Source of the DNA: Bryobacteraceae bacterium
GTDB taxonomy: Bacteria > Acidobacteriota > Terriglobia > Bryobacterales > Bryobacteraceae
Length of the DNA: 64,000 nt
Assembly (NCBI GenBank): GCA_026002875.1
Contig: BPGE01000001.1
Span: 2,976,001-3,040,000 of the forward strand
Direction: 5' to 3'
Shown here: one piece after another, positions 31,493 through 57,365 of the stretch
How positions within the stretch are numbered: the first letter of the stretch is position 1
How the letters are laid out: each line of letters opens with the position of its first letter
Program-made: the position numbers and the translations under genes
Notes under the pieces: model-generated
Told to the model about the DNA's origin: nothing
Databases searched by the model: none
The model's input: the letters and a program-made list of their open reading frames with translations, nothing else

Positions 31493-31555
31493 GCGCCATC
31501 CTGCGGCCGGACGCGGCGAACCAGAGGCGTCCCGGAAGAGCTCCGCTCCGCCTGC

Positions 31556-31600
31556 GGGTTTCCCCTCGGCCTTGGGCGAGGGCTGCAGCCCAACCGGGTT
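31556..31600 (-). repeat. Dispersed hairpin repeat, copy in minus orientation
   Basis: Read on the minus strand this copy has the shared TTGGG-CTGCAGCC entry, a CCCTCG/CGAGGG stem enclosing a CAAG-type loop, and the GGGGAAACCCGC exit. One inner stem pair is mismatched relative to the copies at 54.8-55.9 kb. Confidence 0.65.
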
Positions 31601-31890
31601 CGCCCGAGCCGCGTCAGCGTGACAGCAAATCGCCCTCGGGTTCCAGACCGCGGGCGAAGCGGCCGCAGGCCGCGGGAGCAATCGGCCGCCAACCCGTCCT
31701 CAGCTGAGCGGGCGATCTTCGATGAAGCGGTGCGTCAAAGCAGACGCGGCCCGGGAGAACGCAGCACTGTTTACGCATCCGCCTCGCAGACGGCCCCGTT
31801 TTTGTTTCAAACAGGCGCCCTGGTTTCCGTGCGTTGCCCCCGCGCCCGGCCGTTTGATAGACAGGAAAGAACCGGGAGAACCTGTTCCCC

Positions 31891-34438: not shown

Positions 34439-37399
34439 TCAGAAGTTCACGCGCAGCATGAATTGCAGCATGCGGCTGGTGCCGAAGCCGGTCGCGCCGT
34501 CGTTCGCCGTCGAGCGGATCTGGCCGAAGTCGCCGCGCGACCAGTTGTTGACCGGCGCGTCGAACTGCGCGCGGTTGAACACGTTGAACGCCTCGGCCCG
34601 GAAGTCCACCGACCACTGCTCGCCCAGCCGCGTCCGCTTGTTCAGCGCCACGTCGGCCTGCCACAGCCCCGGCGCCCGCAACAGGTTGCGCGGCGCAAAG
34701 CCCCACGTTCCGCGGGCCGGCGCCGCGAACGCGGCCCGGTTCACCCACAGATCTGGCGTCTTCGTGTCCGGGTAGAGCGGCGCGCCCGTCAGGTTCGGCC
34801 GCTGGTTGCGGGCGTTGCCGTCAGGAACATCGGCGGTCGCCCGGTCCAGAATCACGCTCACCGGACGGCCCGTGCGCGCCGTGAACACCCCCGAAAGGTC
34901 CCAGCCTTCCAGAAGCCGCCCGCCGAACCCTGACTTAGGCCCGAAGGCGCGGCCGGGCCCGAACGGCAGTTCGTACACCGAATTAATCGTTGCCGTGTGC
35001 CGGATGTCGAAGTTCGACACCGCGCGCTCGCACCGGCGGCACGAGGCGATCATGATCTCCGCTCCATCGCCCGCGCCGGCATTGTCGTCAATCGCCTTCG
35101 AGTACAGGTACTGGAGCTGGAACAGCCAGCCGCGCGTGAAATTCCGCTGCAGCGAGTTCTGCCAACCGTGGAACGTGTTGTTGTTGTAGTTCACCTTGCG
35201 GTCGATATCGGCGAACGCCGGCAGCGGCCGCACGGTCGTGCCCGGGATAAACGTGTTCACACGGTCGCGCCCGAACAGCTTCGAGCCCCGGTTGCCCACA
35301 TAGGCCGTCTGGAAAACGAACGCAGCCGGCAGCTCGCGCTGGATCGACAGGCTCCACTGCTGCGAGTAGAAGTCGCGCCGGTCGCGTTGCAGCGCCCGCG
35401 GCTGGAAGCCGGCAGAGCGCGCCTCGCCCAGAAACGGCGTGATCGGATAGGCCAGCCCGGGGCGCTGCGCCCCCGTCAGCTGCAATCGCTCCGGCTCGCT
35501 GTCCACGGCCGCCGTCACGTCGTCGTTCTGGCCGGGCCCGTAGTAGATGCCGTAGCCGCCCCGCAGCACCGTCTTCTGCGTCATCCCCCAGGCGAAGCCG
35601 AACCGGGGCGCGAAATTGTTCCGGTCGGGGAAATACCACGGCGAGCCCTCCGGGCACCAGCCCGCGCAACGGATATCGTCGAACACACGCCCGCGGTTGT
35701 TCACCTCGGTCATCACCGTGTAGTACTCGTACCGGGCGCCCAGGCTCAGCGTCAGGTTTTTCAGCGCCCGCCACTCATCCTGCACATAACCCTGCCACAG
35801 CGTGCGCCGCCCGCCGAACATCGGCAGCACCCCCGCCACCTCGAACCGGTCCACCCGGTTGTTGATGAACGAGTCGAGGTTCGCGTACCGCACCGAAACG
35901 CTGCCGTCGTCTCCTGCGTTCATCTGGATGCGCCGCGCCTCGCCGCCGAACTTCAGCGTGTGACGGCCGAGCTGCCAGCTCACGTTGTCAGCGTAGGTCC
36001 AGGAATTCGGCTTCTCGTAAATCGCCGTCGAGGCCTGCGTCGTCGTCAGCCCGGGAATCGTGAACGCCTCTGGCAGAAGGCCCTTCTGCGGCCGCGTCAG
36101 CGCGCTGCGGTTGAAGCCGAACTTGAAATCGTTGACGATCCGCGGCGACAGCACCGCCTGCCACTGCGCCGTCGCGTTGGTCGGCCGCACGTAGCTCTCG
36201 CGGTACTCCAGCAGCCCCGAGCGCCGGTCGTTAAACGTGCCGTCGGTCGTGTTGAACCGGAAGAACAGCAGGTGGTTCGAGTTCAGCCGGTGGTCGATTC
36301 GCACTGTGCCCGCGTTCTCTTCCCAGCGGTTGCGGAACACGCCGGTGAAGCGGTTCACCAGCGGATCGCTGGTCGGCTCCTGGCCCACAGGAAACGCGTT
36401 CACCACGTTGGCCAGCGCGGGAGACGTCTGCGCCACCCGCTGCCGCAGCAGCGCGCTCGGCACCAGACCGTTCACCGCCGCCTGCCCCAGCCGCTGCTGA
36501 AGCCCCTCGTAATTCACGAAGAAGAACGTCCGGTCCCGCCGGATCGGCCCGCCCAGGTTGCCGCCAAACTGGTTGAGGCGGAAATCCGGGTTATCGCTGG
36601 GATCGAACGGCCGGCGGGCGTCGAAAATGTCGTTCCGCACGAACCAGAACACGCCGCCATGGAGGTCATTGGTGCCCGATCTGGAAACCAGGTTGATCTG
36701 CGCGCCCGCGCTCGTGCCCGTCTCCGCCGTGTAGCTGGAAGAGTTCACCTTGAACTCCGAGATCGAATCCAGCGAAATCACCAGCCGCAATCCGCCCTCC
36801 TGGCGCGGGTCTTTGATGCCTGTCGCGTCCACGCCGTCGAACGTCCAGTAGTTTTCATCACGGTAGCGGCCGAAGAACCGGATCGAGTTCTGCGTCCCGT
36901 CGCCCGTGTTGATCGCTCCGGGCGCCAGCGCCATCAGAAAGCTCCAGTTCCGTCCGTTGATCGGAATGTCCTTGATCTGGCGGAAGCCCACCACGGAGCC
37001 GAGGTCCGCCGACGTCTGCTCCAGCGGCGTCGCATCAGCCTGAATCTCGATCTGCGTCGCCACCGTGCTGACCTGCATTTTCACGTTGATCGTGCGCTGC
37101 TGGCCCACTGCAAGCACGACGCCCGTCGTCCGCGACTGGGCGAAACCGTCCTTCGTCACCTGGACCTCGTAGGTGCCCACTGGCACGGCTGCAAAATCGA
37201 AGAACCCCTCGCTCGATGTCTCCACTTCGCGCGAAAAGCCCGTAGCCGCGTTCGTGATTCTCACTACGGCGCCCGGCACGGATGCCCCTGACTCATCCAG
37301 AACCTGCCCGTTCAGCCGGCTGCGGTCCACCTGCCCCGCCATGCAAGCCGCAAACAGAACCGCAACAGCCGCAAGTCTCCATACTCGATGCATGCTCAT
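34439..37399 (-). CDS. Oar-like TonB-dependent outer membrane receptor
   Basis: 986 residues from the ATG at 37399 (ATG 37393 and GTG 37408 are alternatives). A signal peptide ends near ACMAGQ. Residues about 25-110 are a carboxypeptidase-regulatory-like Ig fold (LNGQVLDESGASVPGAVVRI, SEGFFDFAAVPVGTYEVQV). A plug domain follows with IKDIPINGRNWSFLMAL and DGVDATGIKDPR, then a long beta-barrel ending in LQFMLRVNF with the C-terminal Phe expected of outer membrane proteins. Such proteins are abundant in Acidobacteriota and are thought to take up large carbohydrates or peptides. No SusD-like partner is adjacent. It diverges from the copper operon. Confidence 0.92.
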   Translation of the reverse strand: MSMHRVWRLAAVAVLFAACMAGQVDRSRLNGQVLDESGASVPGAVVRITNAATGFSREVETSSEGFFDFAAVPVGTYEVQVTKDGFAQSRTTGVVLAVGQQRTINVKMQVSTVATQIEIQADATPLEQTSADLGSVVGFRQIKDIPINGRNWSFLMALAPGAINTGDGTQNSIRFFGRYRDENYWTFDGVDATGIKDPRQEGGLRLVISLDSISEFKVNSSSYTAETGTSAGAQINLVSRSGTNDLHGGVFWFVRNDIFDARRPFDPSDNPDFRLNQFGGNLGGPIRRDRTFFFVNYEGLQQRLGQAAVNGLVPSALLRQRVAQTSPALANVVNAFPVGQEPTSDPLVNRFTGVFRNRWEENAGTVRIDHRLNSNHLLFFRFNTTDGTFNDRRSGLLEYRESYVRPTNATAQWQAVLSPRIVNDFKFGFNRSALTRPQKGLLPEAFTIPGLTTTQASTAIYEKPNSWTYADNVSWQLGRHTLKFGGEARRIQMNAGDDGSVSVRYANLDSFINNRVDRFEVAGVLPMFGGRRTLWQGYVQDEWRALKNLTLSLGARYEYYTVMTEVNNRGRVFDDIRCAGWCPEGSPWYFPDRNNFAPRFGFAWGMTQKTVLRGGYGIYYGPGQNDDVTAAVDSEPERLQLTGAQRPGLAYPITPFLGEARSAGFQPRALQRDRRDFYSQQWSLSIQRELPAAFVFQTAYVGNRGSKLFGRDRVNTFIPGTTVRPLPAFADIDRKVNYNNNTFHGWQNSLQRNFTRGWLFQLQYLYSKAIDDNAGAGDGAEIMIASCRRCERAVSNFDIRHTATINSVYELPFGPGRAFGPKSGFGGRLLEGWDLSGVFTARTGRPVSVILDRATADVPDGNARNQRPNLTGAPLYPDTKTPDLWVNRAAFAAPARGTWGFAPRNLLRAPGLWQADVALNKRTRLGEQWSVDFRAEAFNVFNRAQFDAPVNNWSRGDFGQIRSTANDGATGFGTSRMLQFMLRVNF

Positions 37400-53913: not shown

Positions 53914-54375
53914 TCAGCTGGAGAGGAGGTCGAGGACGGCGCGGAGCTCGTTGCGGACGCGGTCGAGGACGGCGGCGGCGCGTTCGGGGTCAGGGGCGAA
54001 GAGGTGGCGCTGGAGGACGTGGACAGGAGGACGCGCCGGTTCGGCTGGCGGCGTCTGCGGCGCTTCAGGAGCGGGCGCGACGGCGCGCTCCTGGCGGCGA
54101 GCCTGGCGCTGCTCGGCGAGCGCGGCGCGGGCGCCTTCGATGGTGAAGCGCTTCTCCCACAGCAGATGCTTGATGGCGAGCACCGTTTCGACGTCCTTGC
54201 GGCGGTAGAGGCGCTGGTTGGTGCCGGACTTCTTCGGGTGCAGCTGCGGGAACTCGGTTTCCCAGAAACGCAGCACGGAAGGCTTGACACCCGTGATGCG
54301 GCTGACCTCGCCGATGCGGAAATAGAGCTTGTCAGGGATCTCCACGGGCTGGGGCTGTGCCGCGGCTGTCGCCAT
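53914..54375 (-). CDS. MerR-family transcriptional regulator
   Basis: 153 residues from the ATG at 54375. The winged-helix region occupies about 17-85: [40 protein letters not shown] and [20 protein letters not shown], with TIEGARAAL closing it. This is the MerR/HspR-like pattern seen in regulators without a metal-binding loop. A Pro/Ala-rich linker and a short C-terminal helix follow, with no cysteines in the effector region, so it is not a metal sensor like MerR itself. Targets are not apparent. A sigma-70 promoter is at 54399-54427. Confidence 0.9.
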
Positions 54376-54398
54376 GGGGGAATACCGTCCCTACCGAC

Positions 54399-54427
54399 AT
54401 CCTAATCGCGAACGGGGCGCGCGTCAA
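54399..54427 (-). promoter_or_regulatory. Sigma-70 promoter of the merR-type gene
   Basis: On the minus strand TTGACG (54422-54427) and TAGGAT (54399-54404) are 17 bp apart. The expected start near 54392 leaves about 17 nt of leader before the ATG at 54375. Confidence 0.65.
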
Positions 54428-54737
54428 CAGAAACAGGGGAAAATGTTTTATGGGCTGCACCGGCGGCAGAGGGCTGGGAGCGCTGCGGTGCGGGCTGCAG
54501 AATCGGGAATCGGCCGCCCGCCGGGTGCGATCGGCTCTGCACGCGGCCAGAGCGGGCGGTCCGAACGTGGCACGAGTGCATTTGAACGTTCACTTCCTTG
54601 CGCTGCGGGGCTTTCGTTTGCGGATCTGCACCCGCAGCGGATTGCAGCCGCGCTGAGGTCCGGCAGGGGCTTGGGCGCGTGACTGCAACCGCGCGGGGTG
54701 GGGCGGGTTTCGGTTCGTTTCGTAAAATTGCGGTTTT

Positions 54738-54785
54738 GGGTTTGGGTGGGGGGGGCGGGGCAAGGGTTTGCGGGGCGGGAGGGGG
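54738..54785 (+). other. G-quadruplex-type tract
   Basis: Within 48 bp the plus strand has at least six runs of three or more G (GGGTTTGGGTGGGGGGGGCG, then GGG and GGGG runs), separated by 1-6 bases, meeting the usual G3+N1-7 rule several times over. It abuts the tandem repeats. Confidence 0.55.
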
Positions 54786-54962
54786 CACAGTTGGGATGCA
54801 GCCCTCGGCCAAGGCCGAGGGGAAATCCGCTGGGGAGGGCGCGGGCGGCACAGTTGGGATGCAGCCCTCGGCCAAGGCCGAGGGGAAATCCGCTGGGGAG
54901 GGCGCGGGCAACACGGTTGGGATGCAGCCCTCGCGCAAGCGCGAGGGGAAGCCCGGGGGGTA
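54784..54962 (+). repeat. Three tandem 63-bp hairpin repeats
   Basis: TTGGGATGCAGCC begins at 54791, 54854 and 54917, exactly 63 bp apart. The first two units are almost identical; the third differs at several bases. Each contains an 8-bp stem with CAAG loop: CCCTCGGC/GCCGAGGG at 54802-54821 and 54865-54884, and CCCTCGCG/CGCGAGGG at 54928-54947. The inner two base pairs change from G-C, C-G to C-G, G-C, so pairing is kept. Related copies are at 55869-55916 and 31556-31600. Confidence 0.85.
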
Positions 54963-55044
54963 GGGCGGGCGGACTGATCGCGTGCGGGGCGCGCGGTGGG
55001 GAGGTTTCGGAGGGTGGGGGCGGTGGTGTTTGAACCGCTTGGTC

Positions 55045-55061
55045 GCAGCCCTTCGGGCTGC
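55045..55061 (+). other. Small hairpin upstream of rlmB
   Basis: GCAGCCC (55045-55051) and GGGCTGC (55055-55061) pair around TTC. It is about 43 bp before the rlmB ATG. It may be a degenerate relative of the hairpin repeats or an rlmB leader element. Confidence 0.35.
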
Positions 55062-55103
55062 TCCCGCGCGGCTCTGTTTTGGTTGCGGGGGTAGGATGAA
55101 GCT

Positions 55104-55835
55104 ATGGCATTGCTGGCAGGCATTCATGCGGTGCGCGAGGCGCTGCGCGCGGGACGCCCGATCGAAAGGGTGTCGATTGCGCGGGGCGCGGGCGGGGCGC
55201 GGCTGCAGGAGATCATCGATCTGTGCCGGCAGGCCGGGGTGCCGGTGCGGTTCGAGCCGCGGGAGGCGCTGGACCGGATGAGCCGCGCGGCGCCGCATCA
55301 GGGCGTGGTGGCAGTGGCGGCGGCGCAGCGGGCTTCAAAACTTGAGGACGTGCTGGCGCGCGCCGGCCTGCTGGTGGTGCTGGACGGGGTCGAAGATCCG
55401 CACAATTTCGGGGCGATCATCCGCACGGCGTATGCGGCGGGCGCGACAGCCGTGGTGGCGCCGGAACGGCGCGCGGCGCCGCTGTCGGAAGCGGCGGCGA
55501 AAGCGGCCGCGGGGGCGCTGTCGCTGCTGCCGGTGGTGCGGGTGACGAACATCAACCGCGCGCTCGAGGAGATGAAGCAGGCGGGCTTCTGGATCTACGG
55601 GGTGGACGAGCGGGGTTCGACTGCGTATTACGAGGCGGAGTATTCCGATCCGGCGGCGCTCGTGTTCGGCGGCGAGGGGCGCGGGCTGCACGAGCTGACG
55701 AGGAAGCGCTGCGACTTCCTGCTGCGGATTCCGATGTCGGGGCAGATTGCGAGTCTCAATGTGAGCGTGGCGGCGGGCATCGTGCTGTTCGACTGGCGGA
55801 GGAGGATGAAGCCGGCAGAGCCGCCGCAGCCGTGA
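55104..55835 (+). CDS. rlmB: 23S rRNA (guanosine-2'-O)-methyltransferase RlmB
   Basis: 243 residues from the ATG at 55104, preceded by AGGATGAAGCT. A small N-terminal substrate-binding domain (LAGIHAVREALRAGRPIERV) precedes the SPOUT knot. The three SpoU motifs are visible: LDGVEDPHNFGAIIRTAYAA, ALVFGGEGRGLHELTRKRCD, and RIPMSGQIASLNVSVAAGIV. RlmB methylates G2251 in the peptidyl-transferase region. Related TrmH-type enzymes are possible, but N-terminal length and motif text fit RlmB. It converges with purF. Confidence 0.93.
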   Translation: MALLAGIHAVREALRAGRPIERVSIARGAGGARLQEIIDLCRQAGVPVRFEPREALDRMSRAAPHQGVVAVAAAQRASKLEDVLARAGLLVVLDGVEDPHNFGAIIRTAYAAGATAVVAPERRAAPLSEAAAKAAAGALSLLPVVRVTNINRALEEMKQAGFWIYGVDERGSTAYYEAEYSDPAALVFGGEGRGLHELTRKRCDFLLRIPMSGQIASLNVSVAAGIVLFDWRRRMKPAEPPQP

Positions 55836-55868
55836 TGGGCTGCAGGGGCGCAGGAGCAGCGGAAGGCG

Positions 55869-55916
55869 CAGTTGGGATGCAGCCATCGCGCAAGCGCGAT
55901 GGGAAACCCGTTGGGG
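55869..55916 (+). repeat. Dispersed hairpin repeat between rlmB and purF
   Basis: Same entry (GTTGGGATGCAGCC) and exit (GGGAAACCCGTTGGGG) as the 63-bp tandem units. Stem CCATCGCG/CGCGATGG at 55883-55902 with loop CAAG. Compared with the third tandem unit an outer C-G pair has become A-T on both arms, keeping the stem intact. It lies between convergent genes. Confidence 0.75.
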
Positions 55917-55931
55917 AAGGCGGACGAGGGA

Positions 55932-57357
55932 TCAGGTCCGGATGCGGGAGGCGAGCAGGCCGTCGACGGAGACGATGTGGGTGGGATAGCGGCCGGTGTA
56001 GCAGGCGTAGCAGTAGGACTGGCCGTCGTCGTCGACCGATTTCATGAGGTTTTCGAGCGAGAGATAGGCGAGCGTGTCGGCGCCGATGAACTGGCGGATC
56101 TCTTCGATGGACTGGTTGGCGGCGATGAGTTCGCGTTTGGTCGGGGTGTCGACGCCGTAGTAGCAGGGCGACATCGTGGGCGGGCAGGAGATGCGCATAT
56201 GCACCTCGCGCGCGCCGGCGTTGCGGACCATGCGGACGATTTTCTGCGAGGTGGTGCCGCGGACGATGGAATCGTCGACGAGGATGACGCGCTTGCCGCG
56301 CAGGATTTCGCGCACGGGGTTCAGCTTGAGCCGCACGCCGAAGTCGCGGATGGCCTGGGAGGGTTCGATGAAGGTACGGCCAACGTAGTGATTGCGGATG
56401 AGGCCGTGGCGGAAGGGGATGCCGGAAGCGGAAGAATAGCCGAGGGCGGCAGCGACGCCGGAGTCCGGGATGGGCACGACGACATCGGCTTCGACGGGCT
56501 TTTCCTGAGCCAACAGGCGGCCCATCATTTCACGGGAGAACTGGACGCTGCGGCCGAAGACGATGGAGTCGGGGCGCGAGAAGTAGACGTGTTCGAAGAC
56601 GCACTGGGCGCGGCGCTGGGGGACGGTGAAGAACTCGCGCTCGAGGCCCTGGGGACCGGCGATGACCATCTCGCCGGGCTCGACGTCGCCGATGTGGGAG
56701 GCGTCGATGAGGTCGAAGGCGCAGGTCTCGCTGGCGAAGACGTAAGCGGGACCGGAGCGCAGGTTCATGAGGCCGATGGCGAGCGGGCGGAAGCCGTGGG
56801 GATCGCGGGCGACGATGATGCGGTCCTGGGCGAGAAAGACGAGCGAGAAGGCGCCGTCGATCATGAGCAGCGCTTCGCGCAGCGCGCCGGAGAGGGTGCG
56901 CTCGGCGCTGCGGGCGACGAGGTGGAGGATGACTTCCGTGTCGCTGGTGGCCTGGAAGATGGAGCCGCTTTTTTCGAGCTGCTGGCGGAGCTCGGGCGCG
57001 TTGGTCAGATTGCCGTTGTGGGCGACGGCGATGCGGCCCTTGCTGCAGGCGACCGAAAAGGGCTGGGCGTTGAGCAGCGCGGTGTCGCCGGCGGTGGAGT
57101 AGCGCGTGTGGCCGATGGCGATGTGGCCGGGCAGGCGGGCGAGGACGTCGGCGGTGAAGATGTCGGTGACGTGGCCCATGTCCTTGTGGCAATAGACCAT
57201 CGAGCCGTCGCTGGAGGCGATGCCGGCGCTTTCCTGGCCGCGGTGCTGCAGGGCGTGCAGGCCGAGGTGGGCGAGCTTGGCGGCTTCCGGGTGGCCGTAG
57301 ATGGCGAAGATGCCGCACTCTTCGCGGAGCTTGTCCCAGGCCGGGTTTTCACGCTGC

Positions 57358-57365
<8 letters not shown>
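55932..57365 (-). CDS. purF: Amidophosphoribosyltransferase
   Basis: 477 residues from the ATG at 57365, which has AGGAGA five bases upstream and overlaps the end of purL by 8 bp. It makes 5-phosphoribosylamine, the first purine intermediate, from PRPP and glutamine. Cys17 in [11 protein letters not shown] is the glutaminase nucleophile; the preceding 16 residues would be removed as a propeptide, as in B. subtilis PurF. Four cysteines of the 4Fe-4S cluster are present: one in [10 protein letters not shown], one in [13 protein letters not shown], and two in SYCYACYTG. The PRPP-binding motif is [14 protein letters not shown]. It is third in the purQ-purL-purF operon. Confidence 0.97.

Follow-up and report, generated by a model that had tools for sequence, protein, structure and literature searches.

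The genome analysed here carries hundreds of copies of a short hairpin, REP-1, which we consider, with a probability of about 0.72, to be a non-autonomous, REP-like mobile hairpin spread by a Y1 (HUH) enzyme of the class-3 type; we infer this mobility from the sequences and their arrangement. Since the folding energy of single copies is unremarkable against shuffled sequences (z of -1.0, -2.0, -0.9 and 0.1 for four strands), the case for REP-1 rests on copy number and covariation.

REP-1 in the window

The window is the whole stretch of 64,000 nucleotides that was analysed, and the three units spaced 63 bp and the two dispersed copies that an earlier note had reported are all present in it (54784-54972; 55871; 31559). 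Tandem Repeats Finder places the array at 54784-54950 with a period of 63, 2.7 copies and 93% matches. The REP-1 cores begin at 54790, 54853 and 54916, exactly 63 apart, with further cores at 55871 (+) and 31559 (-). The features of the window are:

54784..54846, minus strand: REP-1 unit 1, 63 bp; the minus strand carries the CGGR foot 5' of the hairpin
54847..54909, minus strand: REP-1 unit 2
54910..54972, minus strand: REP-1 unit 3, with inner stem GCG/CGC, not GGC/GCC
55865..55925, minus strand: REP-1 single copy, with stem CCATCGCG/CGCGATGG (C-G to A-T)
31540..31604, plus strand: REP-1 single copy, with one stem pair broken
55033..55074, minus strand: single copy of a second family, REP-2, on the same strand as the REP-1 array
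55104..55835, plus strand: gene for an rRNA 2'-O-methyltransferase of the SpoU family, lying between the array and the copy at 55871
55932..57365, minus strand: adjacent gene encoding glutamine amidotransferase and phosphoribosyltransferase domains
53914..54345, minus strand: neighbouring MerR-family regulator gene

The paired stem changes described earlier are real, as seen in the two inner stems (GGC/GCC and GCG/CGC) and in the replacement of C-G by A-T in the 55871 copy. The copy at 31556-31600, which had been offered as further support for compensation, fails in that role with its broken pair (7/8). Beside it, at 31644-31689, lies another repeat-rich stretch, a 22-bp tandem of GCGGCCGCAGGCCGCGGGAGC, which resembles sequence near the REP-1 gene (L034 ~2590) and possibly belongs to a further REP-like family.

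Copy number, unit and stem

The host genome is a single contig of 4,863,736 bases. In it the 14-base core GTTGGGNTGCAGCC (with N) has 370 matches compared to 1 for a reversed control, and the hairpin pattern has 329 compared to 0 for its control, so REP-1 is not a product of chance and its copies are not confined to the five in the window. With up to six mismatches allowed, the window and two even samples, together 1.664 Mb, yield 274 copies, of which 199 have the exact core; scaling 370 by 274/199 gives an estimated total of about 500. The core matches divide into 207 forward and 163 reverse, and inspection of the cluster list by eye gave no clear split by chromosome half, as replichore polarity would produce.

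On the foot strand, the conserved unit consists of CGCCCTCCCCAACGGR-TTTC, an 8-bp stem with a 4-base loop, and CTGCATCCCAACYGTG. At the outer ends of 48 of 53 clusters it loses conservation at roughly the same bases, the other five being omitted from this end consensus as they have no copy at four mismatches or fewer. The foot, 5' of the hairpin, is CGGG in 214 of 314 copies and CGGA in 57, a tally that omits 25 of 339 copies with more than four mismatches or too close to a locus end.

Stem complementarity is kept in the added copies: among 339 distinct copies at up to eight mismatches, 271 pair at all eight positions and 43 at seven. Five common, fully paired stem forms cover 262 copies and differ from each other through compensated changes; the CG to GC switch in the inner stem, for instance, needs four concerted base changes. 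These forms are:

CCCTCGCG, loop CAAG: 135 copies
CCCTCGCG, loop CGAG: 56 copies
CCCTCGGC: 47 copies
CCGCCGCC: 14 copies
CCATCGCG: 10 copies

With each variant counted once per cluster, 815 of 856 stem cells pair, compared to 686 on average and 715 at most in 2000 column shuffles, a result that is inflated both by relatedness (shared ancestry) and by the omission of 18 of the 339 copies having fewer than five pairs. Seven of these 18 are split by an IS or MITE, five are hybrids that include another hairpin, and the others are indel-shifted or weak matches. In hybrid copies at L034 4563-4612 and 5375-5424, and in L134 at about G000:C1:3949512, the middle is swapped for a different hairpin, GCAGCCGC-ACCA-GCGGCTGC, with ACAGTTCGCGAGGG after it; this may be a further nested element.

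An IS1182-family element and a MITE inside the hairpins

Inside REP-1 hairpins sit an IS1182-family element (NF033551, 371 bits, cut-off 270), at L034:2825-4547 (G000:C1:2165825-2167546), and a MITE, about 155 bp long, whose ends match those of the element. Further sites lie at 35089, 1587079, 1705718, 2060108 and 4805486. A search with an end pattern found 12 element or MITE ends, and all 12 lie next to a half hairpin, one of them degenerate; the pattern was derived from ends first met in REP-1, and diverged ends elsewhere would escape it. Three of the MITEs form a tandem duplicate, and a 60-bp flank is identical between the sites at 35089 and 1705718, so there are at most five independent sites. 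IS1272 belongs to the IS1182 family. The paper on this element describes inverted repeats as its targets, and like it the element found here sits in stem-loops (PMC5678879). The outcome differs, however, in that IS1272 is described as replacing the inverted repeat without target duplication, whereas the element found here splits the hairpin, and at four of five two-ended sites the same 6 bp from around the loop flank the insertion on either side; at 4805486 the two copies differ.

Transposase genes flanked by their own repeats

Two Y1 genes were found in the genome with PF01797 and two more by protein search. The gene that we assign to REP-1 (G000:C1:2167718-2168164) encodes 149 aa, scores 28.1 bits with PF01797 (cut-off 23) and contains the motifs THVH, WA and YVVEKQ. 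REP-1 copies at 2165649 and 2165729 lie on one side of it and copies at 2168228 and 2168296 on the other, in one orientation, with hybrid copies (8 mismatches) nearby at 2167581 and 2168358; sixty-one 12-mers on the same strand are common to its two 700-bp flanks, with none in inverted form. The association with a REP-associated tyrosine transposase (RAYT) suggested in the earlier note thus stands as far as a Y1 (HUH) gene flanked by REP-1 is concerned, but not for RAYT proper, since this gene scores 19 bits with the RAYT model NF047646 where 80 are needed.

A similar arrangement is found around two further genes. The L082 gene (2182133 onward) has REP-2 on both sides, at 2181978 and 2182754 (L082 5818-6012 and 6738-6790), and no REP-1 in 14 kb around it; the L083 gene (4200-5650) has 177-bp units of a third family, REP-3, on both sides and no REP-1 in 10 kb. 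All three of the class-3-type genes found in the genome are therefore flanked by several hairpins, and the three gene-repeat pairs are specific as far as these flanks (14 and 10 kb) were read. The exact REP-2 pattern occurs 54 times in the genome and not at all in two congeners and G100, a genome of another genus, and REP-3 has four copies in the 864 kb of the first sample, all at its own gene. REP-2 alternates with REP-1 in several arrays. The remaining Y1 gene, in L031 (1432-2160; G000:C1:3427295), encodes a class-2-like protein of 242 aa that scores 78.6 against the 80 bits of the RAYT model, and no REP-1 lies in 11 kb around it.

The residues HxH, W and Y....Q are found in all 15 class-3-type proteins aligned, with WS at the aligned W in the L082 protein. 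The 149-aa protein has an 18-column N-terminal gap compared to most homologues, in a region that the second and third genes keep. Feet beside the other genes are CGGA before REP-2 hairpins and CAGA before one REP-3 hairpin. A PDB sequence search with the class-3 profile returned no match at E 0.1.

Relatives

In our sample of the family, which is part of a larger group, 35 of 121 genomes (the host included) encode a homologue. The search listed 55 matches, of which 15 class-3-type proteins went into the alignment and 30, plus one outgroup, into a tree. In this tree the short enzyme shares a clade (support 100/98) with five G100 genes and a G047 gene. The G100 homologues have 36-42% identity to it. 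Two of the five, in L084 and L086, have hairpins on both sides whose outer motif is REP-1-like (ATTC-stem-CCCGCC, in some copies GGATTC-stem-CTGC) and whose stems are different; the two kinds of hairpin have 32 and 55 copies in G100 and none in four other genomes. The gene in L085 has a similar hairpin upstream only, and the flanks of the G047 homologue contain no repeated hairpins. In L084 (5836-7902, G100:C1), a class-3-type gene and its hairpins are tandemly triplicated with an 810-bp period, followed by units of the hairpin only.

The exact core itself stays close to background in the other 120 genomes of the family sample, 9 of which have one or two matches each, where the reversed control is matched in 5 of 121. 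Within the genus, three of four relatives have no exact-pattern copy, and the gene is absent in the two of these that were searched for it. The fourth, G122, has a single array of 4 units, compared to 23 at the matching locus here, though G122 is a draft assembly and repeat collapse or a chimeric contig may lie behind this difference. The array is in a segment of about 5.4 kb (L157 454-5800, G122:C28, against L120) at 96-100% identity, lowest across the array itself; past this segment identity drops to 84-96% for 6 kb and thereafter to 81-83%. This looks like a recombined segment with an altered array, which would explain the G122 copies better than transposition.

Arrays and the possibility of a minisatellite

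The 339 copies fall into 53 clusters, 35 of which have two or more copies and 18 a single one, at least four of the latter being weak or hybrid 8-mismatch matches. The largest array has 24 units. None of the 35 multi-copy clusters is of mixed orientation, nor is any of 12 in a second, partly overlapping sample. Array periods are mostly 60-64 bp; others are 39-43, 50, 102-105, 126 and 273, often alternating. At spacings of 39-40 bp, the 3' CCCAAC of one unit nearly abuts GGGTTTCCC (or GCGTTTCCC) in the following unit, in a way that would suit a joining of units at the CCCAAC present on both sides of the hairpin.

Such arrays could suggest a plain minisatellite, produced by slippage, recombination and segmental duplication alone with the Y1 gene a bystander. 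Most copies are indeed in arrays, mostly with periods of 60-64 bp and with array-specific variants, and the G122 array with its 4 units against 23 lies in a segment that appears to have moved by recombination. We nonetheless consider this explanation improbable. Single copies make up the 18 clusters noted above, and units end at about the same bases in 48 clusters. Each of three different Y1 genes has a repeat family of its own on both sides, and a similar motif is found around homologous genes of another genus. Additionally, compensated stems need pressure on the hairpin.

Placement and the possibility of a host function

The earlier observation that copies lie between genes holds for all five in the window, which are outside predicted genes, and for the genome samples, where gene calls were again made with our own script rather than taken from annotation. 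In the first sample, in which 85% of bases are predicted to be coding, 204 of 205 copies are intergenic, the remaining one being a match with eight mismatches. The second sample has 62 intergenic copies out of 79, and the other 17 form one array that makes its own reading frame, whose coding score is 0.05 per codon. Convergent gaps are mildly favoured (12 of 43 classified compared to 91 of 630 gaps, p 0.027) and divergent gaps mildly avoided (7 of 43 compared to 191 of 630, p 0.057).

We also considered an orientation bias with respect to transcription, which had appeared in the first sample, where the foot strand is the coding strand for 14 of 15 clusters in co-directional gaps (12 of 13 at a stricter cut-off; 3 of 5 at other loci). 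It was withdrawn when the count in a new sample came to 3 of 11, with a combined count of 15 of 24 (p 0.31).

The intergenic placement, the mild excess in convergent gaps and the pairing of the stem would all suit a host function in RNA or DNA rather than mobility, such as protection of mRNA 3' ends, attenuation, or a gyrase or IHF site. We give little credence to such a role as the explanation of REP-1, with which a mobile hairpin would in any case be compatible. The stem is not followed by a T run on either strand, and a terminator scan of 54300-56000 marks none of four REP-1 copies, one of its two marks overlapping the REP-2 copy. Orientation relative to genes is inconsistent, as the combined count shows, the exact pattern is absent from three of four congeners, and Rfam at gathering thresholds gives no match anywhere in the window.

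Comparison with known systems

The published systems closest to REP-1 are treated by Quentin et al. 2018 (PMC6006769), Di Nocera et al. 2013 (PMC3733652) and Bertels and Rainey 2011 (PMC3116915). In passages of the first of these, class 3 TnpA_Y1 proteins are placed in Planctomycetes, Acidobacteria and Proteobacteria and are characterised by the motifs NHVH, W[TA] and YV[VI][AENY]EQ, a length of about 178 aa (profile of 155), an N-terminus that is extended and conserved, and hairpins with a CnGA foot; the Y....Q motif is said there to be related to class 1, and the enzymes are called possible intermediates between IS200-type and REP-associated transposases, for which experiments are still needed (PMC6006769). 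The same passages report about 600 hairpins and three class-3 genes in Solibacter usitatus, so that the earlier suggestion of an undescribed Acidobacteriota repeat family does not stand in full, its kind being partly in print (PMC6006769). Text from the 2011 paper on the Solibacter genome also mentions numerous short repeats (PMC3174227). In the literature collection searched for such repeats or for class 3 in Acidobacteria, no other paper on them was listed.

REP-1 and its gene share with class 3, as described in those passages, a small HUH-Y protein, the positions of W and Y....Q, an acidobacterial host and a gene flanked by hairpins (PMC6006769). The letters are partly unmatched, however (THVH compared to NHVH, YVVEKQ compared to YV[VI][AENY]EQ, and WS in L082), the REP-1 gene is shorter at 149 compared to about 178 aa and so falls outside the published length, and the CnGA foot fits poorly, with CGGA in 57 and CGGG in 214 of 314 copies (PMC6006769). 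High copy number is a further likeness for REP-1 (370) and REP-2 (54); REP-3 was seen four times, at its gene.

The earlier note had proposed a REP- or BIME-like family, and a canonical GTAG-type REP, BIME or REPIN moved by a class-2 RAYT would be its most familiar form. The REP-like part of this proposal stands: such elements are described in parts of the literature as short intergenic palindromes in hundreds of copies, with a flanked gene and stem variants (PMC3116915, PMC3733652), and REP-1 resembles them in size, palindrome, copy number, intergenic placement and compensated stems. The canonical form is very improbable. REPINs and BIMEs have inverted or alternating copies, whereas all 35 multi-copy REP-1 clusters are of single orientation (0 of 12 mixed in the second sample), and there is no GT[AG]G foot either in the consensus of 48 cluster ends or in the foot tally. 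Furthermore, the 149-aa gene reaches 19 of the 80 bits needed, and the 242-aa gene that comes near the RAYT model has no REP-1 in 11 kb around it. Tandem arrangement as such is not foreign to canonical REPs, for which large clusters containing units reiterated in tandem are on record, as are some ordered tandem arrays (PMC3116915, PMC3733652), the latter in Pseudomonas (PMC3116915); the word 'tandem' is absent from the main text of the class-3 paper (PMC6006769). With IS200/IS605 elements and their class-1 TnpA, REP-1 would share single-strand hairpins recognised by a Y1 enzyme, a recognition that is presumed here, though unlike there the repeats outnumber the gene by hundreds.

REP-1 is thus a REP-like repeat whose transposase is probably of class 3, and not a BIME, REPIN or GTAG-type REP. 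New are the direct-only arrays of up to 24 units, the short enzyme subclade, and the IS1182-type ends in hairpins (12 of the 12 found). That the 63-bp (21-codon) arrays are repetitive protein-coding sequence has a negligible probability, as the single 17-unit array that opens a 371-codon frame has the low coding score given above and many other arrays have frame-shifting periods (61, 62, 64, 50, 43, 40 or 103).

Discussion

As a mobile, REP-like hairpin, REP-1 would be recognised in single-stranded form by the 149-aa enzyme through its foot and flanks, and the enzyme would cut and rejoin it, leaving copies scattered between genes. Its stem would then drift in complementary steps because, as we propose, the hairpin itself is the recognised object. 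Once seated, units may multiply locally head to tail through slippage, unequal recombination or the enzyme; such local multiplication is suggested by the arrays having their own variants and regular higher-order periods.

Several observations count against this explanation. The CnGA foot is present in only 57 of 314 copies, the G047 gene is without hairpins, the L085 gene has its hairpin upstream only, REP-3 is found only at its own gene in the 864 kb sampled, and the array in G122 looks like part of a recombined segment. Additionally, presence and absence within the genus rests on a single gain.

A more speculative idea, which we regard as doubtful, is that REP-1 homes into itself. The direct CCAAC-G repeats flanking the hairpin would be the two cut sites of the class-3 enzyme, which would excise a single-stranded circle of about 40 bases and reinsert it in the same sense beside an existing copy, giving direct arrays with minimal (40-43 bp) and full (60-64 bp) periods. 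If true, such self-homing would exclude inverted pairs and would be a mode of growth unlike that of REPINs.

Clustered REP-1 copies all point one way, unlike most REPs described so far. The three gene-repeat pairs with different stems in one genome mean that specificity can be swapped and tested directly, and the direct-only arrays, together with a near-identical locus having 4 and 23 units in two species (draft assembly permitting), make the link between a REP enzyme and the growth of arrays measurable.
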